From Pseudomonadota bacterium (GTDB lineage Bacteria > Pseudomonadota > Gammaproteobacteria > Halothiobacillales > Halothiobacillaceae), in contig JAJYPA010000113.1 in NCBI GenBank assembly GCA_021795795.1, positions 1-18,531 on the forward strand: 18,531 bases of DNA, in the 5' to 3' direction. The translations under genes were made by a program, and so were the position numbers. The notes below the pieces were generated by a model. The model ran no database searches, was not told where the DNA came from, and saw only the letters and a program-made list of their open reading frames with translations. Shown piece by piece: positions 2,871 through 18,470 of the stretch. Positions within the stretch are counted from its first letter, which is position 1; each line of letters opens with the position of its first letter.

Positions 2871-3704
2871 ATGCGAGATGAAATAGATCTAAAGGCGGCA
2901 ATTAATGCCGTCTCCGACGTGGTGCAGAACCGACCCCGGCCATTACGGGAGCTTGACCAAATTTATATGAAGACAGGTGATATGGTACTGCAAAGCGAGA
3001 TGGTTGCGCGCTGGGCAGACGGCAAACGGCTTGCCTTTATCGGCGATGGTGATGCCATTAGCATATGCATTGCTTATTTGAAACAGCGCGGCATTATAGA
3101 TTATGGCCCTACAGAAATCGTTGTGTTTGACTTTGATGAGCGTATTTGCGGCGCAGTCGAGCGGTTTGCTGACAAGGAACGCCTTGAGCAGTTACGGGCC
3201 AAGCTCTATAACTGTCTGGACGCATTCCCTGGACCAGAGACTTTCGATTGCTTTTATACAAATCCACCGTGGGGAGCAAGTAACGATGGGTTGAGCGTCC
3301 GAGTGTTTGTACAACGGGGTATGGAGGCGGTAGCGTACGCTGGTGCCGGCATGGTTGTTATTGCGGACGATCAGGAGATCGAGTGGCCCCAATATGTACT
3401 TGCGAATACGCAACGCTTTGCCTTGGAGTCAGGATTTTATGTGCAGCGCATGATGTCACGCGTCCACCAATATCACCTAGATGACGAGCCTGAACTTCAT
3501 TCCTGTAATTTGATGTTGAAGGCATTGCCAGGAGTGAGGCCACTACGGCCTAGCCAGCCGATCACCGATCAATCTCAACTAGAAAATTTTTATGGTCGGG
3601 CGAATCCCCTGAAGGTGAAGTATGTTCGCGAAAGGTTGCGGGTAGACTACGGGAAGGCGCACGACGACGAGTACGAATTTGAATTTCTGGAGCAAGTGAG
3701 ATGA
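2871..3704 (+). CDS. BpsA-like (bis-aminopropyl spermidine synthase family) protein with methyltransferase-like fold
   Basis: 277 residues. The ATG at 2871 has a gagggag site about ten bases upstream; an in-frame TTG at 2826 is less likely. It has a Rossmann nucleotide-binding layout: IGDGDAISI at residues 57-65 (SAM-type glycine loop), VVFDFDERI at 84-92 (end of strand 2, acidic residue for the ribose), then TNPPWG at 130-135. The order and spacing match the family of N4-bis(aminopropyl)spermidine synthases, which moves aminopropyl groups from decarboxylated SAM to polyamines. NPPW is also a classic motif of N6-adenine or amino methyltransferases, so methylation of a base or of another amine is an alternative. 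The N-terminal RPRPLRELDQIYMK stretch fits bacterial members of the family. It is 66 bases after the tni operon and coupled by ATGA to the next gene, so the two products probably act together. The substrate is unknown. Confidence 0.75.
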   Translation: MRDEIDLKAAINAVSDVVQNRPRPLRELDQIYMKTGDMVLQSEMVARWADGKRLAFIGDGDAISICIAYLKQRGIIDYGPTEIVVFDFDERICGAVERFADKERLEQLRAKLYNCLDAFPGPETFDCFYTNPPWGASNDGLSVRVFVQRGMEAVAYAGAGMVVIADDQEIEWPQYVLANTQRFALESGFYVQRMMSRVHQYHLDDEPELHSCNLMLKALPGVRPLRPSQPITDQSQLENFYGRANPLKVKYVRERLRVDYGKAHDDEYEFEFLEQVR

Positions 3705-4276
3705 GTGGAATTATTACACCTGGGGCCGGCATACTATTCATGAAGGTGGGTACCCATGCGCAAGAAACACTAGAACAAATTATTGCCCGTAAAACGAAAG
3801 AAATAAACGATGCGGGTTATGCAATGTGGGGTTACGGGGGTAATACCTGTCATCCTCAAACAATGGTGCAACCATTTGCAAAGACGTTTGAGCAACGCGA
3901 GAAAACAATTTACCTTTGCATGGAGGAGATGGAATCCAAGCATTACGCACAACCAGTCAGGGCGGAACAGTTCTCGGCAGATGGTATACATTGGGAGGAT
4001 ATTCCTCCCGAAATCAATGTCCTAGGATCTCGTTATGCGTTAATTATTAAATATCTAAGGCAAGAGCGATTTTCTCTGCCGTTAGCATGTACGCAAATCG
4101 CCATCGGCAACAGTCAGGGAGTTCCTGGAGATCGCTACCTACGTGGTCGAGTAGACAAGGCGTGTTTAGTAGTTAATGATGCCAATCTGCAGGCTACCGC
4201 AGACGAGCGGTGTGCCCAAATCGGTCTGGTAGCCGAGTTGGCCGAGCCATACGCAGCCTTCTTAAGGAACCGGTGA
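3701..4276 (+). CDS. Unknown small protein, family A (WGYGGN motif)
   Basis: 191 residues. The ATG at 3701 overlaps the previous stop (ATGA) and has a ggag site eight bases upstream. A second in-frame ATG at 3740 (MKVGTHAQ) could be the true start, because the conserved part begins there. Seen in the protein: a short strand ILFMKVGTHA (residues 11-20), a helix TLEQIIARKTKEI, then AMWGYGGNTCHP (41-52), and later IPPEINVLGSRYALIIKYL (101-119). These blocks align in the same order with the protein at 6299-7024, so the two are probably paralogues. There are no membrane segments, signal peptide or known catalytic motif. It is coupled to the BpsA-like gene and its last 15 bases overlap the end of the convergent PIN gene. 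I do not recognise a function. Conserved Trp, Gly, His and Cys in the central motif may bind a ligand. Confidence 0.8.
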   Translation: MSGIITPGAGILFMKVGTHAQETLEQIIARKTKEINDAGYAMWGYGGNTCHPQTMVQPFAKTFEQREKTIYLCMEEMESKHYAQPVRAEQFSADGIHWEDIPPEINVLGSRYALIIKYLRQERFSLPLACTQIAIGNSQGVPGDRYLRGRVDKACLVVNDANLQATADERCAQIGLVAELAEPYAAFLRNR

Positions 4277-4912
4277 CGACGATGACAAAATAGATGGAGA
4301 TGCGGCACGTAGCTCCCGTAGATAGCTCTCTAAAGCTTCTACCCAGCTTGTGAGCCCGACTTCCGGGCTGGAGCAACTAAAACAGATGGCCAAGGATCTG
4401 TCTAGACTTCGTTGTGCGCAAATGGCGCTTCGAATTGCTAGTGGGTCGCCTTTCTGGATTAGTCGTAAGAGAAGTTGTTCAAGACAGATCACCTTCCCGG
4501 CGATATCTTGTATGTCGCCTTTACGGGACAGTAACTCCTCCAGCCCCTGGATAGCCCTTTTATCGCCCGTTACGAGCCATGAAAACGCCCGCATGATTAC
4601 GATGGCACAGAGCAAACTTTCACCGGAGTCGACGCTAAGGCTTGCGCGTTGAGCCTCATACTCTATTTGCGCCGCAAATTCTGCCTCTTCTTTTGTTGGT
4701 TCCAAGCATTGTGCCTGCTGAAGTACCTCATTGAGTAAGGCAAACGCGTCATTAAGGTTGGCTTTACGTAATTTTTTCCCGACTATGAACTTAACTGCGC
4801 CGAGGTACCCCACCTCCGAGATGTCAGCCGGGATGGCGCCAATTATTTGTTTCAGTAGTCCGAAGCCTGCCCCTTTGTGCAGAATGTCATTGTCAATGGC
4901 CGTCATCGTCAT
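4262..4912 (-). CDS. PIN-like nuclease, third gene of an HTH-ImmA/IrrE operon
   Basis: 216 residues from the ATG at 4912, chosen because a ggag site lies about nine bases upstream; a GTG at 4936 and an ATG at 4906 are alternatives. The acidic residues are laid out as in PIN domains: AIDNDILHK at the N-terminus (Asp7, Asp9), EPTKEEAEFA (71-80), SVDSGESLLCAIV (Asp95, Glu98) and LVTGDKRAI (Asp117). PIN proteins are metal-dependent RNases, often toxins, so RNA cleavage is the likely activity. The fold covers about residues 1-135; the remaining 80 residues are a Cys- and Ser-containing helical tail of unknown role. The start overlaps the end of the ImmA/IrrE gene by 20 bases, so it is translated with it. 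The assignment rests on motif spacing, not on close similarity to a named VapC. Confidence 0.7.
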   Translation of the reverse strand: MTMTAIDNDILHKGAGFGLLKQIIGAIPADISEVGYLGAVKFIVGKKLRKANLNDAFALLNEVLQQAQCLEPTKEEAEFAAQIEYEAQRASLSVDSGESLLCAIVIMRAFSWLVTGDKRAIQGLEELLSRKGDIQDIAGKVICLEQLLLRLIQKGDPLAIRSAICAQRSLDRSLAICFSCSSPEVGLTSWVEALESYLRELRAASPSILSSSSPVP

Positions 4913-5906
4913 CCTGTGGCTCTCCGATGACGGCACGCAAGAAACCCATTAGATCGTCTGGAACCATTTCCCAGTCGAGTTGTGACCTAGCTACCCCATT
5001 TACCGATTGCCATGCGGGAAATTTATTGACATAAATGTCTTTCATAGCCAAATTGGCCTTCGCCCAGTTGCCGGTTGTATATCCAAAACATAGCGCGAGC
5101 ACTCCTGGTTCTATATGGATGTCCCGCCCCGTTTTTAGTAAATTTGCTGCGAGCTGCTTAGCAGTGAACCTTTCGGTATCTGTATCAATCTTGGGTTCCT
5201 CTATCCCGGTTAGCAACTCCAACGCATAGCGGTCGGCCGCACGCTCTTCTTCGTCGTCCTCGCAGGTCGCCTCAAGCGGATCGGCGAGATCCACGACGGC
5301 TGAACCATTCTGTAAATGGCCTAGCGCAATATGCCCTAACTCATGGGCAAGGTAAAAGGATATCGGAGCTGGGTAGTTGGAATCCTTACCCAATAAAATT
5401 GCAAAGCGATCCCCGATGCGTACTGACATGGCACACATCCGTTTCGCCGTAAGCGGAAATACTCGCAAATGAATAACGGGGATTCCGTGACTCCAACAAA
5501 TCCCCAACAGATCCTGTAATCCGACAAATTCCTTATTGCTGAGAATGGCGGTACGAAATTCTTTCGCGCTGATACTTAGTGACAGCTCCGTAGGTTTGGT
5601 TGCCGTCGACACCATTCGGCCAACGGAGATTCCAAATGAACTCAAAGCTGCGCGCTCGGCTTCGGACTCACTGCCGAGATGCTTGAACTTTGCCTCATCC
5701 TCCCAGACGAATATGGGCTCATCTCTCTCTAGGAGAACACGAGGATCAAGTCCAAGTTTTCGCGCCAACGAGAAGCGCAATTCTATCCGCCCTGAAATAG
5801 AGCCTTCCGCCTCTTCACTCCACCAGCTTGGCCAGGCAGCCAAAATCGCCGAGTCACTGTAGCCGGACTGTCGAAGGCGCCGCTTAAGGTTACCTGAGTT
5901 CGTCAA
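4893..5906 (-). CDS. ImmA/IrrE family zinc metallopeptidase
   Basis: 337 residues. The start is a TTG at 5906, supported by an almost perfect Shine-Dalgarno site (taggaggagaca) just upstream inside the end of the HTH gene. The peptidase motif is AHELGHIALGH at residues 187-197 (two zinc-binding His and the catalytic Glu), with the third ligand expected in EERAADRYALELL starting near 220. The N-terminal 75 residues (RRLRQSGYSDSAIL, a run of Trp, then SLARKLGLDPRVLL) form the helical lead common in this family. ImmA/IrrE enzymes cut HTH repressors after a stress signal. Here a separate HTH gene lies immediately upstream, overlapping by 17 bases, and is the obvious candidate substrate. The PIN gene downstream would then be the released effector. 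This chain of control is inference from gene order. Confidence 0.88.
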   Translation of the reverse strand: MTNSGNLKRRLRQSGYSDSAILAAWPSWWSEEAEGSISGRIELRFSLARKLGLDPRVLLERDEPIFVWEDEAKFKHLGSESEAERAALSSFGISVGRMVSTATKPTELSLSISAKEFRTAILSNKEFVGLQDLLGICWSHGIPVIHLRVFPLTAKRMCAMSVRIGDRFAILLGKDSNYPAPISFYLAHELGHIALGHLQNGSAVVDLADPLEATCEDDEEERAADRYALELLTGIEEPKIDTDTERFTAKQLAANLLKTGRDIHIEPGVLALCFGYTTGNWAKANLAMKDIYVNKFPAWQSVNGVARSQLDWEMVPDDLMGFLRAVIGEPQDDDDGH

Positions 5907-6246
5907 TGTCTCCTCCTACTTCCCCTAGTTGAGATGGTGGACGAAGTGCGCCAAGCGCGTCAATCACCTGTGCGATTGCGTCTGCGTGCGCCTCGGTATG
6001 ATCCCAGATTCGGTAGAAAGCGGCCAGCACCCTCTCGCTTGGCTTGGCCGGATCGGTTGTGGCTTCTGATTCATTAACTCCAACAAATCTGCATAAACGT
6101 GACCGTGCCTGACCACGCCGTAGCGTTGCCCCCTTGAGCGCCCTGCTCACGGTAGACTGGCTCACCCCAGCGGTAATAGCCATCTGCCGCTGCTTGAGGC
6201 CGTGCTCGTCCATGTAGGCCCGGATCCTATGCGAAAAGGCTTGCAT
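5890..6246 (-). CDS. XRE-type helix-turn-helix regulator
   Basis: 118 residues from the ATG at 6246; a TTG four codons upstream (6258) is possible. The HTH spans about residues 16-40 (LKQRQMAITAGVSQSTVSRALKG), with the typical Gln-x3-Ala-x3-Val-Ser-x-Ser-x-Val-Ser pattern of the Cro/C1/LacI-like class. The rest is helical, with no peptidase or toxin motif. It is first in a leftward operon with the ImmA/IrrE peptidase and the PIN gene. No Shine-Dalgarno site is seen before the ATG, and the best -10 box lies only about eight bases upstream, so the message may be leaderless. It probably represses its own promoter and the divergent gene at 6299, and may be inactivated by the peptidase. Roles are inferred from layout. 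Confidence 0.85.
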   Translation of the reverse strand: MQAFSHRIRAYMDEHGLKQRQMAITAGVSQSTVSRALKGATLRRGQARSRLCRFVGVNESEATTDPAKPSERVLAAFYRIWDHTEAHADAIAQVIDALGALRPPSQLGEVGGDIDELR

Positions 6247-6298
6247 AATGGTGAACAATAATGAATAATTGAATCATCGTCAATATGTGGAGCGTGTG
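6247..6298. promoter_or_regulatory. Divergent overlapping promoters with possible operator
   Basis: 52 bases between the HTH gene (leftward) and the family-A paralogue (rightward). Leftward: -35 TTGACG (complement of 6278-6283), 17-base spacer, -10 TATTGT (complement of 6255-6260). Rightward: -35 TTGCAT (6241-6246), 17-base spacer, -10 AATAAT (6264-6269), then GGAG at 6289-6292, six bases before the ATG at 6299. The two promoters overlap physically. A 5-base inverted repeat, ATTGA at 6268-6272 and TCAAT at 6280-6284, could be an operator for the HTH protein, but it is short. The promoters are predicted by eye only. Confidence 0.45.
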
Positions 6299-7024
6299 AT
6301 GCAACTACCAAGACATTTCTGTTGGACCCGTTTTGGGACCGAATCAGGGGAGGTGATTGGGCAAATACTGGCGCGCAAAGAGGATGAGCGTCGAGCCAAC
6401 GGAGGGATTTTCTTGTGGGGCATTGGGAATGCACTTGCCCCATCCATGCGGGAGCTGGTGTATCGTGAGCCCGCGCCGGAGGTTGTGTTCAGTCCAATTC
6501 GCTCCAAGCCCCGTAAGGAGGATGTGTATCCATCCCGCCTTGTTGCATGGACTGAGGGCCGCACATCGGCTGGTGACGTTTTTAAACTCCCCCCAGGTTC
6601 GATGGTTACCAGTCGCGTGTCGGAAAGGTGCCGGCGACGCAAACACTATGCACTGGTCTGTGCGTCAACGGAGTCCCTGTGTATAAAGGACTCTGCGGAA
6701 AATTTTTCGATCCGCTCTCTGCGAAACCTGTTAACGGGTCGGCAGGTCGGTGCATCGCAGGTCACGGCCATCGTCCAGGTCGCGGAGAGGCAAGAGAGCA
6801 GCGCTGGGGCTATGTATGCGGCGGCTATGCGCACCCGCTTGATACCCCCGTACTTCGTGGAGTTGGTGAATCCGGTGACGCTGCCTATTGCGCTTACTTC
6901 CGATGTTGCCGCAGGAGTGGCGGCATGGAATGATGTGCTTAGCTCTATCCGGCATTATAGTGACGCCGGTGCGCACGCCGGTTCGCCTTCAAGTTCATAC
7001 CTGATGTCGCAGGATTGTTATTGA
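6299..7024 (+). CDS. Unknown protein, paralogue of the WGYGGN-motif family A protein
   Basis: 241 residues from the ATG at 6299, which has GGAG six bases upstream; an in-frame TTG at 6269 is less likely. The first 50 residues, with FGTESGEVIGQILARK, then FLWGIGNALAP (38-48), match the 3701-4276 protein in order and spacing (GT..x..E...QI.ARK, WG.G...P). A later block, KLPPGSMVTSR followed by HYALVCAS, matches its IPPEINVLGSRYALI. The C-terminal 110 residues have no counterpart there. It is Arg-rich in the middle and has no signal peptide or membrane segment. It is transcribed away from the HTH-ImmA-PIN operon, probably under shared control, and its last seven bases overlap the end of the convergent kinase gene. 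The function is not recognised. Paralogy is my reading of a by-eye alignment. Confidence 0.75.
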   Translation: MQLPRHFCWTRFGTESGEVIGQILARKEDERRANGGIFLWGIGNALAPSMRELVYREPAPEVVFSPIRSKPRKEDVYPSRLVAWTEGRTSAGDVFKLPPGSMVTSRVSERCRRRKHYALVCASTESLCIKDSAENFSIRSLRNLLTGRQVGASQVTAIVQVAERQESSAGAMYAAAMRTRLIPPYFVELVNPVTLPIALTSDVAAGVAAWNDVLSSIRHYSDAGAHAGSPSSSYLMSQDCY

Positions 7025-7608
7025 CCAATGTTTGTGGCCCTCAAGAAGTTATCGAGCAAAAGTTCTTGAGAGATTCCAGAATTTAGATAATATAAGTGAG
7101 ATCCGGTCTCAAAAGCGTACATACTGGCGACTTGGCACTGGATCTGAGCGTGCAAATCGAGATCTGACAGAGAGGGAAGCGGTCGGCCGGCAGCGTTGGC
7201 CTTGATTCGATCGGCAATAATTTCTGAGCTGGCGTATAGACAGATAATGACATCAGGAGCTAATTGACTAATCTGTCTCTTGGAAAATGGCGTTACTCGG
7301 AAGCCGTAATTTTCAATCGTTACGGGGTGTGAGTCGACTACTATGTGCTGTTTCTCTCTGGTAGAATTGACAAGATCAAGCAACTGCCTGTCTATTTCTT
7401 CAACATCATCTCGAGTAATTATGTTGGATGATTCACGCCTAAGGTCGTCTTGGGTGGCGATTGATGATAACCTCGTTTTAACCAATGCCAATAGCTCTTT
7501 GTTGTAGGTGAAGATATGTGTTTTGGGGAACAGCTTGCCAAGGTTTTCAGTAAGTGTTGACTTGCCAGTAGCTGGCGCCCCCGTCAAATAAACAAGTTTA
7601 TGTGTCAA
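7018..7608 (-). CDS. Archaeal-type adenylate-kinase-like P-loop nucleotide kinase
   Basis: 196 residues. The start is a TTG at 7608 with AAGGA seven bases upstream. The Walker A loop is GAPATGKST at residues 10-18. HIVVDSHPV (about 88-96) matches the 'DTHAVI' strand of archaeal adenylate kinases (AdkA). PDVIICLYASSEIIADR follows, and then an Arg-containing lid (ANAAGRP). From these blocks the protein looks closer to AdkA than to the bacterial Adk with its large lid domain. It should phosphorylate a nucleotide or nucleoside monophosphate; the substrate cannot be told from the sequence. It lies between a family-A protein (convergent, overlapping by 7 bases) and the restriction operon, from which it is separated by 114 bases. 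By position it could belong to the BpsA-like/PIN block, perhaps handling a modified nucleotide, but that is inference. Confidence 0.75.
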   Translation of the reverse strand: MTHKLVYLTGAPATGKSTLTENLGKLFPKTHIFTYNKELLALVKTRLSSIATQDDLRRESSNIITRDDVEEIDRQLLDLVNSTREKQHIVVDSHPVTIENYGFRVTPFSKRQISQLAPDVIICLYASSEIIADRIKANAAGRPLPSLSDLDLHAQIQCQVASMYAFETGSHLYYLNSGISQELLLDNFLRATNIGQ

Positions 7609-7722: not shown

Positions 7723-10467
7723 TTAAAGATCAAGCCTGCGTTGTTTTTCCTCCCATTCGAGAAAGGCGTTGAAACGCCGCGAGAGCCCCCCTTTGCGGAA
7801 TTGATCGAAAACGCTCTGAGGCACCTTCAGATAACTCCAGAGCTCGCCGGTTTCCCGCCCAACCTCCTCGCACCAGCGATGCATGTGCGTCGCCTTGGTG
7901 TCGGTGTCCTCGAACTCCCGACCCTTGGTTTCGATGATCCAATGCACCGGGCTATCCTTTGTTGTCTGCACGGCGACGAAGTCCGGGTAGTATAGGCGGA
8001 TGGCGCCAGCCTTGGAGAGGTACTGCACGTGAAATTCGGTGAACCATTCCGCCAGCGCCGCGAAACGGTCGATGTCCTCGCAGCTGTCGAGGAACTCGGC
8101 GAAGCGCGCTTCGAAGTCGTTATAGCAGGCCACCCGGTTGAAGATCGTCCTGCTCGCGGGCACGACCATGCGCCGCCAGAGGAACTTGGCAGTATCCGAG
8201 AGCCGGTACGGTTCTCCGACGAGTTTGACCGGCTGCGCCTCGGTAGTAAGCACACCGATCTTTCGTGAAAACAGATTGGCGATTCCATCAAGAAGCCCGG
8301 TATGGTTGAGCGTGCGGCGGACGCGGGCGTCATCCAGTTCGACGATGCCGCCGAAACAGCGCTTCTGCACGTACTCCCTCACCTTGGGATAGAGCTCGCT
8401 GAACTGCCCGGTGAGTCGGGCATGCCGCTCGACACGGCTGGTAAGGGAAGAGAGAAGATTTTCGACCTGTGGCACGTTTTCTGCGTTGAACTCCACCTCG
8501 TCGGAGCCGACTTTGACATCGATGATCCCGTGCATCAGGTCGATCCGATTCCGCAGTTCCTTTTCAAGGTCCTTCTCGGAACTCAAAGGCGGCATCTTCA
8601 ACGGGTCGAGTTCTTCCAACCGGCGATACTGGCGTTCATACAGCGGCGTGGTGCGGGGGATGGCGATATCGTATTTCCGCCGATCTTCCACCGGGAAAAT
8701 CTCGATACCCGGCTTGGGTGGACTGCTCACCGTGCGGATGCCCACGCCTTCCTTCTCCAGTTCCCGGATGAAGTTCTCGAAGGCGTTGGTGCCGATGAGC
8801 TCCAGAATCTGATGGTTGTCGCGCGGCACACCGCGCATGAGGCGCAGGCCCCGACCGATAGCCTGCTCAGGCAAGATATTGGCTTTGGCCGTGAAAGGCC
8901 TCAACCCTAGGATCACCGACACGTTGCGTACGTCCCAGCCCTCGCGCAGCATCAGCACAGAGACGATGGCGCGGATACGCGATCCACCCGAATCTACGTC
9001 CCTGGCCGCCGCCCGCGCGGCTTCCAAGTCCTTCTGGGTGATCTCGCCGTTGCCCTTGGTGTGGATCACCAGCACCCGGTCCTTGTCCTTGAACTCCTTT
9101 TCCCGCCGTAAGCGCTCGGCGATGGAATCGGCGTCTTTAGTATTTTCCGCCATCACAAACAATAATGGCTTTTCGTTTACTGCCCCGTAATCCTTCGCGT
9201 GGTTGCGCCAGCGCTCGACTGCGATGGAGATCCATTCGCTGTAGGCATCGCCAGCCTCGTTGTGGGCGTAGCGATCCGGGTCCGGCTTGTCAGTCTGGTG
9301 GATGATGAGCGGGGTTTTGACGATGCGGTCTTCCACCGCCTGGGCCAGCGGATAGTCCACCACGATCCAGGGGAAGAAGGTGCCATTTTGATTCTTGGGC
9401 GTGGCCGAAAAATCCAGCCATAGCGCGAGCCCGCCGGCGCCCCGGGTCTTGAGGTTGTCGTGCAACGCCATCAAGGTCTTGTTCCATGCGAGGTCTTCGT
9501 CGTGAACGTGGTGGGCCTCATCGTTGAGCACCATGAGATTGGGCAGGCGCTTGACCCGCTCCAGTATGGGCGTGGCCGAAGCGAGGTTGCCCTTGGGCGC
9601 GTTGCCCAGTAGGGCCGCAATGGGGTTGATGGGCGCCTGGGGCGCTCCGTTATCCTCGTAGATCTGCTGGATGTTGGTAAGGAACAGGTTGCCGCCGGAT
9701 GCTGGCTCGCGGCCATCTCCCCGCAGGGTCACCTGGAGCGCGAACTGGTTCTTCCATTCCGGCGGCACAATGGGCAACTGATGGAAAACCCGGGCCGACT
9801 CGAAGTCCTCGCGCAGACGCTCGTAAACGATCACGTTTGGCGCTACCACCAGGAAGTTGTCCGCCGCCGTGCTTCCCGGCTCCAGCCGGCGATGTAGCAG
9901 GCTCCAGGCGATGACCAACCCCATGACCACGGTCTTACCGCTGCCCGTGGCCATCTTCACCGCGTAGCGGGCCAGCCCCGCCGGGGGAAGTTCCTGCTCG
10001 GCCTGCTTGCCGATTTCCGGGATGTAGCGTCGGAAGCTGCGCGTACCCTTGGTGGAAGTCAGAATCTCCAGTTCCAGCAGGTCGGGGCTCTCGAAGTAGA
10101 CCTGGACCAGTTCGGCCACATCCTGCCGCTGCTCGACCTCATAGAGATAGACGAGTGTTTCCACCGCCTCGCGCTGGCAGAAGTAGAAGCGGAACGGCTC
10201 GCCGGAGGGCAGCAGGTGGTCTTCCTCGAACCAGTACTGAAACAGCCGCCGCGTGGTGTCGGATGCACCCGGGTAGTTCTTCTCACGCCATGCGTCGACC
10301 TTCTGACGGATGCGTGTTACTAGCAGAGTGTGGCTCTCGCGCCGACCGTCGGTCTCCTCCCACGCGTCCACGCCAGACTTGACCAGGTGGCTGCGCGGCG
10401 GCGCGTAGGGGTTGCGCGCCTGAATTTCCGGCAGATCGATTTCCAGGACGTTGGCGTGCTCGCTCAT
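7723..10467 (-). CDS. res: Type III-like restriction subunit: superfamily 2 helicase with C-terminal PD-(D/E)xK nuclease
   Basis: 914 residues from the ATG at 10467, which overlaps the methyltransferase stop (ATGA) with a gggaag site upstream. Helicase motifs in order: KMATGSGKT at 171-179 (Walker A), NDEAHH at 315-320 (Walker B), DFSATP at 352-357 (motif III). Later come VLMLREGWDVRNVSVILGLRPF and QAIGRGLRLMRG (motifs V and VI). The C-terminus has YYPDF (Asp829) and IIETKG (Glu846, Lys848), a PD-(D/E)xK nuclease core. The order and size fit type III Res subunits, which translocate on DNA and cut together with the Mod subunit. It is the last gene of the higB-higA-mod-res operon. All motifs are intact, so it is probably active. 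A type I HsdR identity is less likely because there is no specificity-subunit gene and the partner is Mod-like. Confidence 0.88.
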   Translation of the reverse strand: MSEHANVLEIDLPEIQARNPYAPPRSHLVKSGVDAWEETDGRRESHTLLVTRIRQKVDAWREKNYPGASDTTRRLFQYWFEEDHLLPSGEPFRFYFCQREAVETLVYLYEVEQRQDVAELVQVYFESPDLLELEILTSTKGTRSFRRYIPEIGKQAEQELPPAGLARYAVKMATGSGKTVVMGLVIAWSLLHRRLEPGSTAADNFLVVAPNVIVYERLREDFESARVFHQLPIVPPEWKNQFALQVTLRGDGREPASGGNLFLTNIQQIYEDNGAPQAPINPIAALLGNAPKGNLASATPILERVKRLPNLMVLNDEAHHVHDEDLAWNKTLMALHDNLKTRGAGGLALWLDFSATPKNQNGTFFPWIVVDYPLAQAVEDRIVKTPLIIHQTDKPDPDRYAHNEAGDAYSEWISIAVERWRNHAKDYGAVNEKPLLFVMAENTKDADSIAERLRREKEFKDKDRVLVIHTKGNGEITQKDLEAARAAARDVDSGGSRIRAIVSVLMLREGWDVRNVSVILGLRPFTAKANILPEQAIGRGLRLMRGVPRDNHQILELIGTNAFENFIRELEKEGVGIRTVSSPPKPGIEIFPVEDRRKYDIAIPRTTPLYERQYRRLEELDPLKMPPLSSEKDLEKELRNRIDLMHGIIDVKVGSDEVEFNAENVPQVENLLSSLTSRVERHARLTGQFSELYPKVREYVQKRCFGGIVELDDARVRRTLNHTGLLDGIANLFSRKIGVLTTEAQPVKLVGEPYRLSDTAKFLWRRMVVPASRTIFNRVACYNDFEARFAEFLDSCEDIDRFAALAEWFTEFHVQYLSKAGAIRLYYPDFVAVQTTKDSPVHWIIETKGREFEDTDTKATHMHRWCEEVGRETGELWSYLKVPQSVFDQFRKGGLSRRFNAFLEWEEKQRRLDL

Positions 10468-12311
10468 CGCGCTTCCCACGTCAGCAGCCGGCTGGTGTCG
10501 TTGCCGAAGATGTCCACCACCTTAACCAGCACCTGATAGCGGCCCGGCTCGGCGTAATCGTGGGCGTCACTCTCCAACACCAGCTTGCGGCTGACACGCG
10601 TGCGGTAGGTCTGCCACTGGTTCATGAAGGTGTCGTGACGGAAGTCCCAGTCCACCGCCCAGTAGTCGATGTAATCCGACCACTTGGCAATCTTAGCATG
10701 CACCTCGTCGGGAATCAGTTCGGTGTCGGGGATGACGAAGTTGGCGAGCTTCACCCGCACGCGCCGCTTGCCGTACTTGTCCGGCACGATCTCGGCCTCC
10801 AGGTGCGCGAGGTCGAAGAATCGCACGTCTCCGCGTTCCACCGCTTGCCGTTCCATCACCTCGCGCGGGATGTTGAGCAGCCGGAGCTTCATCTGGTGGC
10901 TGCGCTGCACCTGCTGGGCAAGTGGATCGTGCAGGCCCATCTCCCACTCCCAGCCGAGTACGTGCAGCTCCTTCTGGCCCAGGGCTGTGACTTCCGCCAC
11001 GGCCTCGTTCACCTCGCGAATGGTCACCGGTGCGTCCACCGCCCCCACGTGTACCAGTGCCGCGCCCTTCTTGCCATGCACGTGGGAGCCAGCGATTGGT
11101 TGAGCGTGATACAGGTCCAGGATGAAGCGGACGTAAGCTGCCACCGCCGCGACATCCTGCTCCACCGGCTTTTCGTCACCGAAGCTCACCCCCTGCCAGT
11201 ATTTGCGCTCGTACTGGCCCAGGTTGAGGATCTCGAACGGGCGGCAAGCGGGAATGTCCAGCAGCCGCTTGCGGGTGGTGTGGATGGCGAAGCGGCCGAG
11301 GTCGCAGCCGATCCAGCGGCGGTCGTTACGCTCGGCGGCGACAAGGGATGAGCCAGAGCCACAGAAACAATCTAGCACCAAGTCGCCGGGATTGGACGCC
11401 AACGCTAGGACGCGCTCAATCAAGTCAACTGGCTTTTGAGTGGCGTAATGTACCCACTCGGCCTTGTTGGCTGGTTGTAGGCAGCGAATCCGCCACACAT
11501 TGTCAATTTGGCGTTCAGTGCTCAGATATGTGATTGTCTTCCCATTCTCGTCTTTATCGTTGACTATCTTCCCGTCGATGAAGCTGTACTTGAGTTTCTT
11601 TACCGGTTCATCGCGTGGCTCTGCAAGTGTATGGTAGGTGTACTTTGCACCCGTGTTTTTGACGTAATAGAGAATCTGGTCAAATGCTTTTGGAATACAT
11701 CGTTTTTTGGCTCCGTGAAGCTTGTTGTAGTAGTACCAGGCAATCTCATTCTGGAAGTTCTCCCGCCCAAATATCTCATCCATCAGCACCTTGACATAAG
11801 GACCGAGATGAACGTCCAGGTGCACAAAGATGGAGCCGGTTTCGGAGAGTAAATTCCGCAGCAATTCCAAGCGCGATGCCAGCATCGACAGGTACGAAGC
11901 CAGACCGCCGCCCCAAGTGTCCCGGTAGGCTTTCTCTTCCATCAGGGAGGGCTCCTTGCCCGGTAGCAAATTGTCTCCATCGCCCACCAGCACCTTGAAG
12001 GAGAAATCTGACCCTGTGCCAAATGGTGGATCAATGTAGATCAAATCCACCTTGCCCGCGAACTCCTCCAAGAGGCTCGCCATTACCAGTAAGTTTTCGC
12101 CCCAGATGAGCTTGTTGCGCCACTCGTCCTGCCCGCTCGGTTTGGCGGCGAACAGATCGATGGTGTGGCCTTTGGTACGGCTGGCGCGGCTTTCTTTGAT
12201 AGTCTCCACCACCTGGAAGGGCAGCGCCACGCCGCGATTGACGACACGGTTGCCGTGTTCGTCGTACTTGCCGGGCCAGATGAGTTCGGGCTGGGTGATC
12301 TCCAGTTTCAT
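10464..12311 (-). CDS. mod: Type III-like DNA methyltransferase (Mod-type, beta-class amino methyltransferase)
   Basis: 615 residues. The ATG at 12311 has AAGGAG six bases upstream and overlaps the higA stop (ATGA). The catalytic motif IV, YIDPPFGTGSDF, at residues 92-103 precedes the SAM-binding motif I, DCFCGSGSS, at 314-322, with TQKPVDLIERVL just before it. This order defines the beta class used by type III Mod proteins, which usually methylate adenine N6. Residues about 190-300 lie between the motifs and should be the target-recognition domain; their DNA (about 11440-11760) is clearly poorer in G+C than the flanks. The C-terminal 230 residues are an extra region that may contact the restriction subunit. 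It works as the protective and recognition partner of the downstream res gene. Confidence 0.9.
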   Translation of the reverse strand: MKLEITQPELIWPGKYDEHGNRVVNRGVALPFQVVETIKESRASRTKGHTIDLFAAKPSGQDEWRNKLIWGENLLVMASLLEEFAGKVDLIYIDPPFGTGSDFSFKVLVGDGDNLLPGKEPSLMEEKAYRDTWGGGLASYLSMLASRLELLRNLLSETGSIFVHLDVHLGPYVKVLMDEIFGRENFQNEIAWYYYNKLHGAKKRCIPKAFDQILYYVKNTGAKYTYHTLAEPRDEPVKKLKYSFIDGKIVNDKDENGKTITYLSTERQIDNVWRIRCLQPANKAEWVHYATQKPVDLIERVLALASNPGDLVLDCFCGSGSSLVAAERNDRRWIGCDLGRFAIHTTRKRLLDIPACRPFEILNLGQYERKYWQGVSFGDEKPVEQDVAAVAAYVRFILDLYHAQPIAGSHVHGKKGAALVHVGAVDAPVTIREVNEAVAEVTALGQKELHVLGWEWEMGLHDPLAQQVQRSHQMKLRLLNIPREVMERQAVERGDVRFFDLAHLEAEIVPDKYGKRRVRVKLANFVIPDTELIPDEVHAKIAKWSDYIDYWAVDWDFRHDTFMNQWQTYRTRVSRKLVLESDAHDYAEPGRYQVLVKVVDIFGNDTSRLLTWEAR

Positions 12312-13411
12312 GCCTGCTCCTTTTCATCGCAGGGTTCTGACCAGCACAAGCGGCGCTTGAGTCCGTTGCCAATCTTGTGGTTGTACACTCCCTCCTTTTG
12401 CAGGCGACCGACGACGATGCCGGGAGCAATGCCAACCTCGGCGGCAAACGCTTCTACCTGGGCCAGCGTGGGGTGGCCCGCCACCAACAACGCCTTGAGC
12501 TTCGAGGGTGGAATGAGTGTGTCAGCAGCGTAGCGATTCGCCTCGGCTTCCTTTTCGCCATCCAGGCTGTTGCCTTCGATGAATACCTCCTTCTTACTAT
12601 GCAGCAGCACATGTCCGGCCTCATGGAAGAACGTGAACCAGAGCTGGTCGTCGGATTTGTAGCGCAAGGAGAGCTGAATAAGAGCCTTGTCGGGAGACAG
12701 CCAGCGGGTGGCGCCGGAGACACCGGTCTTGGGCAGTTCCGGCACGAAAGCCAGCGCAACGCCTGCGGCGGCACACAGGTCGATGAGCTTCTGCTGGAAC
12801 ATCTCCGGCGGCTGCCGAGTCAGGCTGCGGATTTCCAGCAGCGCAGCCTGGAAGTGGGTCTTGCGATAGGGCGCGCAGCGCATCTCCTGGGCCAGTCGTT
12901 CACCTTGGCGAAGCCAGGCAGATACCGCCTCGGGATGGGCCTCGAACCTGGCGGAACGGCGGTAGGCCACCTGATGGTCTTCCCACATGGCCTGCCACTG
13001 CTCAACCGCATTAACACCGAAGAAGCGCAATATGGCATCAAGTTGCTCCACCGGATCCTTCAGGCGGGGCAGCCAGCCTTGCTTGGTGAGGGCCGTCACC
13101 GGCACGCGCTTGAGCCAGTCGAGTCCGGCTTGCAACCGGTCGCGTTCGGCTTCGCGGGCGCGGACCTCTTGGTAGAGACTTTCCAGATTTTGCCAGAAGT
13201 GGGCAGGCCGGCCAAGCACGCGCTCCAGCTTGAGCGCCGTCTCGGCGGTGACCGGGGCCTTGGCGTTGACGATCTCGTTGATGGTCTTTGGGGTCAGCCC
13301 CGTGCGCACGGCCAAGTCGCGCTGGCTCATGCCAACGGTATCAAGGTACTCGGCTAGGATTTCTCCGGGCGAGACCGTGTAGTCAGGTTGAAAGCCGGTG
13401 TCGCTAATCAT
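12308..13411 (-). CDS. higA: HigA-type antitoxin fused to an ImmA/IrrE metallopeptidase domain
   Basis: 367 residues. The ATG at 13411 has GGAGG six bases upstream. The N-terminus is a HigA-type HTH: PGEILAEYLDTVGMSQ (15-30), then LAVRTGLTPKTINEIVNAKAPVT (33-55) and ALKLERVLGRPAHFWQNL (59-76). A helical linker follows, then a zinc peptidase motif FFHEAGHVLLH (261-271), with EAEANRYA (288-295) supplying the third ligand. It overlaps higB by 8 bases and the methyltransferase gene by 4. The HTH part should bind and repress the operon promoter and neutralise HigB. The peptidase part could cleave the antitoxin itself or a partner under stress. Because it is in the operon with the restriction genes, it probably also regulates them, which is inference from order. 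Confidence 0.9.
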   Translation of the reverse strand: MISDTGFQPDYTVSPGEILAEYLDTVGMSQRDLAVRTGLTPKTINEIVNAKAPVTAETALKLERVLGRPAHFWQNLESLYQEVRAREAERDRLQAGLDWLKRVPVTALTKQGWLPRLKDPVEQLDAILRFFGVNAVEQWQAMWEDHQVAYRRSARFEAHPEAVSAWLRQGERLAQEMRCAPYRKTHFQAALLEIRSLTRQPPEMFQQKLIDLCAAAGVALAFVPELPKTGVSGATRWLSPDKALIQLSLRYKSDDQLWFTFFHEAGHVLLHSKKEVFIEGNSLDGEKEAEANRYAADTLIPPSKLKALLVAGHPTLAQVEAFAAEVGIAPGIVVGRLQKEGVYNHKIGNGLKRRLCWSEPCDEKEQA

Positions 13412-13748
13412 GAGTGTCCTCCACGCCGAGAATGTTGATCGCAGTCACTTGGTGCCAGTCCAGCCCCCCTTCCGGCCGATCAGGCCGCAGATCGTGGTCG
13501 GGCATGAAGATCATGCGGTAAGGATGATCCAGGTCCATGCTCAATTGCCCAGCCCGATCACCCTTCAGTTCATGACAACGTTCCGAACCACCATAGGGGG
13601 GCCAGAAGTCGCCCAGACATTTGGCGGCACGCAAAGCTTGGATACGCCGCATGATGAGACGGGCACGCCGCTCCCCGTGAATCGCCTGGAGGCTCCGACC
13701 TTCGCGGAAGGCTTTCTCCAGTTTCTTGGAATCAAAAGTAATTTCCAC
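13404..13748 (-). CDS. higB: HigB-type toxin (RelE/ParE superfamily)
   Basis: 114 residues. It starts with MEITFDSKKLEKAF, has a central basic helix ERRARLIMRRIQALRAA, then ELKGDRAGQLSMDLDHPYRMIFMP (60-83) and ends ...ITAINILGVEDTHD-like. This is the typical order of HigB 'plasmid maintenance killer' toxins, which cleave mRNA on the ribosome. Toxin before antitoxin is the normal higBA order. The start is a GTG with only a weak ribosome site (ttgagc), which may keep toxin translation low relative to HigA. The gene begins 61 bases after the uvrD-like gene. The size and conserved Arg and Lys residues suggest an active toxin, but I cannot confirm the catalytic set. Confidence 0.88.
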   Translation of the reverse strand: MEITFDSKKLEKAFREGRSLQAIHGERRARLIMRRIQALRAAKCLGDFWPPYGGSERCHELKGDRAGQLSMDLDHPYRMIFMPDHDLRPDRPEGGLDWHQVTAINILGVEDTHD

Positions 13749-16621: not shown

Positions 16622-18400
16622 TCATAATATTACCCCCGCTTTTTCCAGTGCATTCCTTGCCGCTGACTCGCATGGCGCCTTATCATTTTTCGACGACACG
16701 TGCCGGAACGACCAGGCCTGTCCTGGGCAGCTTTTTAGTAGCCCACCGGTGAATACGCCGTCCTTTGCCGGAAGCGTTTTCATGACCAGAGAAACCCAAT
16801 CCTGCAGTTCTTGTTCGTTTTTGAGCCGGAATACCAGACCGCTGAAGGATTCTTCCACGTTGTCCTTCGTCCCATCGGATTTCTGTGCAGTCCATGTGCG
16901 CCGCTCAATCTCCATCACGAACACGTCACCACTGCTCGTTCGAACCCGCATCACCAAGGCATGACGACGGCGCCCTATCTTTACGTCGATGAACAACCAA
17001 GTATAGCCCCTCTCACCCTTTTTTTGTTCGGGAAAAGGGATCAAAACAGGCTCCAAGTCTTTCTGGATGCCGGCACCGAAGGTGAAAAACCCGATCTCCA
17101 GGATTTCCCTGGGGTATTGTGTCGCCAGCCAGCGGAAGGTATTCCACATGTCCCGCAGTGTACCGCGAGACTCCAGTCGGATCGGTGCGTGGATGGACGC
17201 ATGGCCGATGCCCTTGCCGGTACCGTAGTGTTCCCCAGCAGAGACCGAATCGGTTATGGGACCGATAACCACATCGCCTCCCGTGCGTTGCGTGCGTGCA
17301 TGCCTGACCGGAATTATGGCGGGTGGTCCACCAAGCCACTCCCATGCGATCTCTTCCAGGTCAACTACGCCTGTTCCGTGATTCGGCGCTTCATCCTCGG
17401 CTAGGGACAGCCCCTCGGGAACTAAATTACGGGCTGCCCGTACAGCGCCAGCCCATGCTGCGCTGTTTATCGTTTCCTCGTCCGGTTCCCCGGTTTTATT
17501 CGTATTTGCGCGATCAAGCATGACGGCTGGGGACTTCGGTGGGGACATGCCGATAATGTTCAGGGCCAGGAAGCTGCCAGTTTCGGGAATATCTATGCCA
17601 GCAATACGGATGCGGCCTCGTCCTCGGTTCCACGGCGCCACCTTCAGGAAAATAGGATTGTCACCTGACATGCTCTCTGCCTGAGACCAAATGCTCTTTG
17701 CCTGGTCACGGGCGTAGGGGTCGTATTTCAGGTGCGCGAGGAACAGGGCGTCGTCGTCGCGCATGTCGCGACCCAGGCAAACCGCCCATGTCCCTGGGTT
17801 GTGTGGCAACGGTTCAGACGGTGTGGAGAAAAATCGGCGTTCCGCCTTATCCCAGGGCAATGTCACCAATACACGTTTGACTTCCTCGGAAAATCCATAG
17901 TAGCGGGAGAAGAATTCCATGCAGGGGACCAAAAGCGATGAGGTGCCGTTGTTCTTTGTAGAGAAATGGAGCAATGAACCGTCCGCCATAGCGTTTGGGC
18001 AGCCCTTGAATATGGGGTATGTGTCACGGGGAATAAGCCTACGCTCGTTTGATGGGGCGTTTTTGCCCATGGAAGAGTAGCGCCATCCGCCTGGCGAGAA
18101 ATCGACGTTAAATATCCTGGTGGTGTAACTGGCCCTGGCGATTAGCTTGCCTTCATGCCACACGGTTCCGATACGCATAAACCCAAGGCTGGTGACATTC
18201 ACGCGCTTGCACTGAAAATTATCCAGTAAAATCCCGTCGTTCCTCACTTCCCGAAACAGGACGGTCACCTTTGGTTGGTATTTGTCCGAGCGGTTGGGCG
18301 CGAGCGTCCCATACCACCAGACCATAAATGGTCGACCCTCCAGATCGCCTATGTCGATGGTAACTGGAGCGTAGGCCTTTTTCAGGGGAAGTCGTTCCAT
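16622..18400 (-). CDS. TnsE-like transposition targeting protein
   Basis: 592 residues from the ATG at 18400. An in-frame TTG at 18460 would put a terminator-like hairpin inside the coding sequence, so I prefer the ATG, which has a ggtgg site just upstream. Blocks resembling Tn7 TnsE in order: LVPCMEFFSRYYGFSEEVKRVL (157-178), a mid-region with RGRIRIAGIDIPETGSFLALNIIG (261-284), and a C-terminal domain (about 415-545) with WNTFRWLATQYPREILEI, RRRHALVMRVRTSSGDVFVMEIE and a final FSGLVFRLKNEQELQDW. TnsE directs Tn7 to replicating DNA through the sliding clamp and DNA ends. The N-terminal 150 residues are unlike Tn7 TnsE and rich in aromatic residues. The match is by memory and eye, so the family call is moderate. 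It faces opposite to tniB-tniQ and is 14 kb away from them. Confidence 0.55.
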   Translation of the reverse strand: MERLPLKKAYAPVTIDIGDLEGRPFMVWWYGTLAPNRSDKYQPKVTVLFREVRNDGILLDNFQCKRVNVTSLGFMRIGTVWHEGKLIARASYTTRIFNVDFSPGGWRYSSMGKNAPSNERRLIPRDTYPIFKGCPNAMADGSLLHFSTKNNGTSSLLVPCMEFFSRYYGFSEEVKRVLVTLPWDKAERRFFSTPSEPLPHNPGTWAVCLGRDMRDDDALFLAHLKYDPYARDQAKSIWSQAESMSGDNPIFLKVAPWNRGRGRIRIAGIDIPETGSFLALNIIGMSPPKSPAVMLDRANTNKTGEPDEETINSAAWAGAVRAARNLVPEGLSLAEDEAPNHGTGVVDLEEIAWEWLGGPPAIIPVRHARTQRTGGDVVIGPITDSVSAGEHYGTGKGIGHASIHAPIRLESRGTLRDMWNTFRWLATQYPREILEIGFFTFGAGIQKDLEPVLIPFPEQKKGERGYTWLFIDVKIGRRRHALVMRVRTSSGDVFVMEIERRTWTAQKSDGTKDNVEESFSGLVFRLKNEQELQDWVSLVMKTLPAKDGVFTGGLLKSCPGQAWSFRHVSSKNDKAPCESAARNALEKAGVIL

Positions 18401-18408
18401 GACCCACC

Positions 18409-18447
18409 AAAAATAATAAAGGGCACCATGGTTTGAGCCATAGTGCC
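18409..18447 (-). terminator. Terminator-like hairpin in the leader of the TnsE-like gene
   Basis: On the minus strand a 10-base-pair stem, GGCACTATGG with CCATGGTGCC (one G-T pair), closes a CTCAAA loop (18422-18447). It is followed by a T-rich run (tttattattttt) that ends about eight bases before the ATG at 18400. This is the form of an intrinsic terminator reading leftward. It could end transcription from outside the window or act as an attenuator for the TnsE-like gene. On the + strand no T run follows. Confidence 0.6.
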
Positions 18448-18470
18448 AGTATTGTAGCAATAATAATTGG

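Follow-up and report, generated by a model that had tools for sequence, protein, structure and literature searches.

Do the seven closely packed genes of this locus belong to one system, and if so, what might that system do? A sequence-only reading of the window (the whole stretch of 18,531 nucleotides analysed here) had proposed a single undescribed system. The gene content described in that reading was recovered in full: seven genes occupy positions 2871-7608, with BPSA and WGYGG joined at an ATGA junction.

2871..3704, plus strand: BPSA, BpsA_C-family protein with NPPWG; probable SAM-dependent amino-methyltransferase, judging from its sequence
3701..4276, plus strand: WGYGG, 191 aa, family unassigned; invariant W43 and W98; ATGA-coupled to BPSA
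4262..4936, minus strand: PIN, predicted VapC-like PIN-fold nuclease; probable toxin/effector
4893..5906, minus strand: IMMA, ImmA/IrrE (M78) metallopeptidase, CapP-like
5890..6258, minus strand: HTH, XRE-type probable repressor (HTH_31 E 9.7e-9)
6247..6298, no strand: divergent gap between HTH and WGIGN with one TGMATA copy; candidate operator
6269..7024, plus strand: WGIGN, paralogue of WGYGG; invariant W50 and W94
7018..7608, minus strand: KIN, adenylate-kinase-like P-loop protein (AAA_17); optional partner

The minus-strand operon runs in the order HTH-IMMA-PIN, WGIGN diverges from HTH across a gap of ~52 bp, and KIN converges on WGIGN. To the left of the block lie a TniQ-family gene (Pfam E 8.3e-22) and a gene for a 498-aa protein whose Pfam family assignment is not confident; to the right lie a restriction gene, a type III-like methyltransferase gene, a HigA-type antitoxin gene, and a UvrD-like helicase gene. 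Further along, a 612-aa protein (16622-18460) had no meaningful match in Pfam, NCBIfam, or the PDB, and a supposed TnsE-like character gained no backing from these searches. Rfam and tRNA scans of the window returned no hits, and the whole window had no megablast match among plasmids. PADLOC-DB 2023 and NCBIfam gave a confident match for none of the seven block proteins and no match to the model of a named system; the best among weak, partial PADLOC matches were mad2 (E 6.4e-7, BPSA), capP (E 1.5e-6, IMMA), and VakA (E 2.6e-5, KIN). A Foldseek search against viral structures gave nothing at E 0.001.

Co-occurrence of the genes across genomes and plasmids

Genomes from 84,980 species were scanned with WGYGG alone as bait, which yielded 103 confirmed relatives. 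The loci of the best 80 of these 103 were all inspected, and profiles of the window proteins were run across all of their open frames. The five core genes (BPSA, WGYGG, PIN, IMMA, and WGIGN) were present together in 74 of these best 80 loci, with per-gene counts of 80 for WGYGG, 79 each for BPSA and IMMA, 78 for PIN, 76 for WGIGN, and 33 for KIN. Five of the six loci without the full core are cut by contig ends: in L005, L006, L056, and L058 the end falls at the absent core gene, and L028 stops 1.1 kb past WGYGG, where its relatives L027 and L032 carry an insert of ~1.5 kb before PIN. The sixth, from Bacteroidales (L081), has no PIN and a BPSA of only 111 aa, and looks like a degraded or mis-assembled locus. 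By record titles, the best 80 of 103 loci derive mostly from Alphaproteobacteria, together with other proteobacteria, Acidobacteria, Actinobacteria, Cyanobacteria, and the one Bacteroidales.

Screening of 199 genomes of one order gave a concordant distribution, in that WGYGG, PIN, BPSA, and WGIGN each matched the same two genomes, namely that of the seed and that carrying L036. IMMA matched 14 of the 199 genomes, full length only in the same two and partially, over the protease region, in the other 12. KIN matched six, strongly in the two core-gene genomes, at E 1.1e-9 in one, and by the P-loop stretch only in three. Among 72,556 plasmids, BPSA and WGYGG share the same five records, two of which represent one strain; a PIN search recovered four of these five plus two cyanobacterial plasmids, and PIN was identified by profile in the fifth (Pseudomonas koreensis).

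The operon with PIN also occurs outside this set. A PIN search of 347 genomes of the phylum to which L007 belongs identified six places in five genomes, four of them module loci (L007, L091, L092, and L093, with L092 being L005 again, cut at a contig end). L094 and L095 encode HTH-IMMA-PIN without the remaining module genes; a sce7726-family protein neighbours the trio in L094 and L095 has a look-alike. In the two cyanobacterial plasmids IMMA-PIN is a stand-alone pair. Because the trio or pair is found without the rest, one reading is that IMMA-PIN is an older, separable unit to which BPSA-WGYGG-WGIGN was added. The HTH-ImmA-PIN trio of the sequence-only reading is present in the window, but is not exclusive to the set. 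A further BPSA-WGYGG pair is found, in turn, in L051 and L069.

Pairwise distances of the core proteins show positive correlations across 73 loci (r 0.58-0.81; maximum of 500 permutations, 0.24), although shared ancestry is by itself able to raise r. These 73 comprise the 74 loci with all five core genes plus the window and L001, minus three near-copies of L001. KIN distances correlate likewise over the 33 of 73 loci that were compared (r 0.64-0.81; permuted maxima 0.30-0.42). Gene order is variable: in the best 80 of 103 loci, WGIGN diverges from IMMA-PIN in 37 and was not seen in four; the remaining 39 have it on the other strand, in front of IMMA-PIN in 38, the 39th being L081. L093 and L097 are rearranged and keep every gene, KIN included, while WGIGN is split over two frames in L097 and L098.

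Collectively, these observations indicate that the block is, almost certainly, one conserved, mobile, and undescribed module. It may serve in stress responses or in defence against viruses. The neighbourhood comparison that the earlier reading had called for did not reveal the rarity of co-occurrence that would have spoken against it; rather, the presence of the core five in 74 of the best 80 of 103 loci and in the same two of 199 genomes bears out the claim of one undescribed system. KIN, seen in 33 of these best 80 loci (one, L019, a 63-aa fragment) and not seen in 47, some of them short, was rejected as a core part.

The module is present on plasmids and in two related viral contigs, and WGYGG was found in none of 50,697 phage records. 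Integrase-like genes (11) and serine-recombinase-like genes (10) were identified by eye near the module in the best 80 of 103 loci, and 101 flanking proteins sampled with Pfam included three phage integrases and one resolvase. A TniQ relative is close to the module in four of these best 80 loci and on one plasmid, which fits the listing of ImmA and PIN genes as frequent cargo of Tn7-like elements in the available portion of PMC8649781.

For the defence setting proposed earlier, the signs are mixed. The restriction operon of the window is consistent with it, as are the Abi-type, ABC-three-component, or ATPase-helicase neighbours, read as defence-type from annotation, in three of four distinct plasmid contexts (the fourth has none). 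However, a 10-versus-10 PADLOC comparison did not support enrichment of defence neighbours: the 101 flanking proteins on the module side matched 15 families at E 1e-8, no family by more than one protein, and 101 control proteins from the same genomes matched 134, in a control that was not clean because one control region, L106, lies 30-45 kb from the module on the same contig and turned out to be a defence island (five of seven scanned proteins match Gabija-, Sng-, or PD-T7-type models), and one of three scanned proteins in L108 also matches. The claim of defence-island enrichment was therefore rejected. An anti-phage function is a plausible candidate role of the module.

Protein families and a seemingly exchangeable regulator

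BPSA matched the Pfam family BpsA_C (E 9.3e-19; 68.1 bits against a cut-off of 27). Its profile matched the N4-bis(aminopropyl)spermidine synthase BpsA best in the PDB (5xnc, E 1.1e-15), pointing to a homologous catalytic domain, followed by METTL5 (E 1.5e-4). BPSA differs from BpsA in that NPPWG, present in 72 of 73 BPSA sequences with a gap in the other, replaces the DPPET of BpsA, leaving no DPPE-type motif, and in that the N-terminal part of BpsA is unmatched, the alignment beginning at BpsA residue 126. Because of the motif change, an amino-methyltransferase appears more likely than the polyamine chemistry suggested earlier, and polyamine synthesis was dropped as the first-choice reading. 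The NPPW motif is also present in N6-adenine DNA methyltransferases. Records of three plasmid contexts annotate BPSA as 'bis-aminopropyl spermidine synthase family', and one as 'putative methyltransferase'.

WGYGG and WGIGN are paralogues (hhalign E 3.4e-11). A total of 2,427 homologues of WGYGG reach E 0.001 or better; no precomputed Pfam domain was found among the 120 of these that were listed, and no Pfam family of note among 89 members scanned. No Pfam family was found for WGIGN, whose invariant residues W50 and W94 are kept in all 73 sequences. Searches against PDB sequences gave 11 unrelated matches for WGYGG, all at E 0.17 or worse, and none for WGIGN. YTH and EVE domains are readers of modified bases. 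The predicted order of strands and helices and the two invariant tryptophans resemble, by eye, those of YTH; all 50 matches listed in a structural comparison were YTH domains, although weak and none significant. Pfam YTH or EVE was not detected at E 0.1 in 89 WGYGG or 64 WGIGN members, and hhalign, a weak method here in that YTH against EVE itself gave P 0.016, returned P 0.21 for WGYGG with YTH, P 0.017, off-register, with EVE, and P 0.58 and 0.31 for WGIGN with YTH and EVE. An assignment of WGYGG as a YTH domain was rejected. Neither paralogue reaches a significant score with any method, and the likeness to this m6A reader is a weak match of predicted fold that may serve as a lead only. The CoCoNuT systems, which target RNA, are predicted to include YTH-like domains, as described in the accessible part of PMC11090510.

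PIN has a predicted VapC-like fold, and the acidic residues D15, D17, E106, and D125, judged by eye to be equivalent to the VapC acids, are conserved in 73 of 73 sequences. It had no match among PDB sequences. Relatives of the PIN-VapC type cut RNA. The predicted fold and invariant acids argue for the toxin-like effector that had been proposed. IMMA matched M78 in Pfam below the cut-off (E 0.01), and its profile is closest in the PDB to CapP (7t5t, E 5.8e-4), with similarity confined to the protease region; the HExxH residues H188, E189, and H192 are kept in 73 of 73 sequences. The CapP match favours the view that IMMA is a protease of the repressor-cleaving type. The AdkA-like kinase of the sequence-only reading is adenylate-kinase-like (AAA_17 E 1.3e-11; PDB adenylate kinase 7owe E 1.5e-14) and co-inherited, but optional. 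Overall, a single system, an ImmA protease, and a PIN effector survive from that reading, whereas polyamine chemistry and the kinase as a fixed part do not.

The HTH regulator anticipated earlier is an XRE protein in the window but apparently not throughout. An XRE-like gene precedes IMMA in at least 23 of the 37 divergent-layout loci, 17 of these genes having a WDGSEEHA-like tail (both by eye; best 80 of 103 loci), and a pattern search found this tail in none of the 38 operon-type loci of the same best 80. In those 38, an AbrB-like gene (eight loci) or a MerR-like gene (four) was seen by eye at the place of the regulator, and no regulator was recognised in the remaining 26. The HTH profile matched antisense WGIGN frames, so HTH counts were not drawn from it. 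The regulator of the module thus seems exchangeable.

TGMATA (TGAATA/TGCATA-type) repeats occur in 13 of 16 HTH-WGIGN gaps, in 23 copies against a mean of 1.8 and a maximum of 7 in shuffles, with the motif having been picked by eye from the same sequences that were then counted. Twenty-three loci were tried, of which 16 had a gap definable by rule, six failed the rule, and L018 was dropped. Stretches of up to 200 bp before BPSA in the same 16 loci contain, as a raw count, six copies on either strand. TGMATA copies can double as -10 boxes.

A proposed mechanism and its alternatives

We tentatively favour, at somewhat less than an even chance, an inducible PIN-RNase toxin/defence system joined to a nucleic-acid methyltransferase and reader-like proteins. 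With its NPPW motif of the amino-methylating kind, BPSA would act as a SAM-type enzyme that marks host RNA (or DNA), and WGYGG, encoded right behind BPSA, would be its partner and probably read or guide the mark; WGIGN would be a second, diverged reader or sensor. Upon an infection or damage signal, the CapP-like IMMA would cut or inactivate the repressor (the XRE protein in the window, probably regulators of a different kind in other loci), and RNA would then be cut by the coupled PIN nuclease, with the mark determining which RNA is cut and which is spared. The optional kinase may handle nucleotides from modified or cut RNA. Of this picture, the gene set and its co-inheritance, the predicted PIN fold, the families of BPSA, IMMA, and KIN, and the conservation of catalytic-type residues are established, whereas nucleic-acid methylation, the reader role, the trigger, the target, and defence are proposals. 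We consider this the best explanation because the core five are linked in 74 of the best 80 of 103 loci and in the same two of 199 genomes, their distances are correlated, and the gene set is retained despite rearrangement (L093, L097); because of the predicted fold and acids of PIN, the NPPWG motif and METTL5 match of BPSA, and the CapP match of IMMA; because L051 and L069 have a second BPSA-WGYGG pair; and because analogous predicted systems combine PIN, two PUA-like domains, AAA_17, and XRE, as far as the available text of PMC7641849 shows. A more specific version is unlikely as it stands: RNA modification and restriction, in which BPSA would be a METTL5-like writer, WGYGG and WGIGN YTH-like readers, PIN an RNase that uses an N6-methyladenine-type mark to separate host RNA from that of phages or from damaged RNA, and the ImmA protease with its exchangeable repressor the alarm.

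The occurrence of the trio or pair alone on mobile elements and small plasmids, and of the module itself on plasmids, in viral contigs, and near recombinase-like genes, would also suit a three-component toxin-antitoxin (HTH-ImmA-PIN) serving to stabilise mobile elements, with the methyltransferase and WGxG proteins as a specialised antitoxin or immunity arm and addiction, not phage defence, under selection. A 2009 study predicted such a three-component toxin-antitoxin (PMC2701414, in the part available). Such a function has some standing but is rather unlikely, given that the main lineage almost always has BPSA, WGYGG, and WGIGN too, and a plain addiction pair needs none of them.

Distinctly less probable is restriction linked to DNA modification, in which BPSA would methylate host DNA, with the WGxG proteins as recognition factors for modified or foreign DNA and the PIN-fold protein acting on DNA or R-loops. 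The occurrence of NPPW in DNA methyltransferases, the weak mad2 match of BPSA, and the adjoining type III-like restriction operon of the window are compatible with this, but Pfam identified no DNA specificity domain or recognised DNA nuclease in the seven proteins, PIN-VapC relatives act on RNA, and an rRNA methyltransferase ranks next to BpsA among the PDB relatives of BPSA. Finally, the small-molecule chemistry first proposed, with BPSA as a polyamine aminopropyltransferase, the kinase as a nucleotide enzyme, and a toxic or signalling product, is very improbable, since the BpsA_C homology, the adenylate-kinase-like KIN, and the spermidine-synthase annotation of BPSA in plasmid records (one of which reads methyltransferase) are countered by NPPWG in place of DPPET, METTL5 as the next relative, and a kinase unseen in 47 of the best 80 of 103 loci, some of them short.

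Relation to known systems

The gene set is very likely a working system, so far unnamed, given its tight linkage in loci whose record titles span four phyla (Pseudomonadota, Acidobacteriota, Actinobacteria, and Cyanobacteria), two core families without a Pfam entry, and ~2,400 homologues of one of these. No description of it was found in a search of full-text literature, whose coverage excludes subscription papers and most preprints. If BPSA marks RNA and PIN obeys the mark, as in the mechanism we favour, the module would be a bacterial RNA counterpart of restriction-modification. Were it no more than a PIN toxin under ImmA control, it would still extend the kind of toxin-antitoxin predicted in 2009 (available part of PMC2701414) by an arm of three genes with unassigned chemistry.

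CapH/CapP comprises a repressor and an ImmA-type protease beside a toxic effector. The module likewise pairs a repressor and an ImmA-type protease with a predicted effector of toxic type, but CBASS genes were not seen at the module and the likeness is limited to the protease region. The three-component toxin-antitoxin of an XRE regulator, a COG2856 (ImmA) protease, and a PIN toxin (Makarova 2009; PMC2701414), as set out in the portion available, corresponds to the HTH-IMMA-PIN operon, in which all three genes are present in the window; the module differs in that BPSA, WGYGG, and WGIGN almost always accompany this operon and in that its regulator seems exchangeable. With the predicted (PIN)-GNAT-EVE/ASCH/AAA_17/XRE systems, which have a second PUA-like protein, AAA_17, and XRE (Bell 2020; PMC7641849, accessible text), it shares a PIN nuclease, an XRE regulator, mobile and defence settings, two small proteins that in the module may be PUA-like, and a frequent but optional AAA_17-type P-loop protein. 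Unlike them, it has a BpsA-type methyltransferase for GNAT, a constant ImmA protease, and separate genes; its WGYGG and WGIGN have no significant similarity to EVE or YTH, and Pfam detected no GNAT or EVE domain, and so no GNAT-EVE fusion, at E 0.1 in the seven proteins. The module is thus most like a cross of the PIN-GNAT-EVE and XRE-COG2856-PIN predictions, with a methyltransferase as its enzyme.

Genes surrounding the module

In the window, the module is accompanied by the following genes:

1308-2804: 498-aa protein with many cysteine pairs, its gene overlapping that of TniQ
7723-13748: compact run of a restriction gene, a type III-like methyltransferase, a HigA-type antitoxin and an adjoining short gene
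16622-18460: 612-aa protein

The restriction gene resembles BPTD_3080, with a score below the cut-off. The 498-aa protein had no confident family in Pfam or NCBIfam, and the 612-aa protein matched nothing in Pfam or NCBIfam and nothing of significance to its identity in the PDB. Among related loci, a prophage-like neighbourhood enclosing the module was common to five (L001, L002, L033, L037 and L038), which come from three genomes and two viral contigs. In the genome of L061, Gabija-, PD-T7- and Sng-type genes (control region L106, 3919-12163) lie on the same contig as the module, 30-45 kb away.

Additional and divided copies of module genes

L051 5954-7428: second BPSA-WGYGG pair, adjoining a complete module
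L069 4685-6105: the same
L097 10184-10955: WGIGN split over two frames, plasmid copy
L098 11266-12062: the same

Both second pairs lack PIN and IMMA. Because their reading frame is divided in two, the WGIGN genes of L097 and L098 may be broken or mis-sequenced.

HTH-IMMA-PIN genes apart from the module

L094 8574-11236: HTH-IMMA-PIN trio without BPSA or WGxG proteins
L095 6483-9145: the same
L114 4966-6675: IMMA-PIN two-gene pair, small cyanobacterial plasmid
L115 4999-6666: the same

The trio is adjoined by a sce7726-family protein (NF033832; family match checked in L094 only), and a gene labelled by eye as integrase-like lies close to the trio in L094 and L095. The plasmid IMMA-PIN pair is possibly a minimal toxin-antitoxin system.
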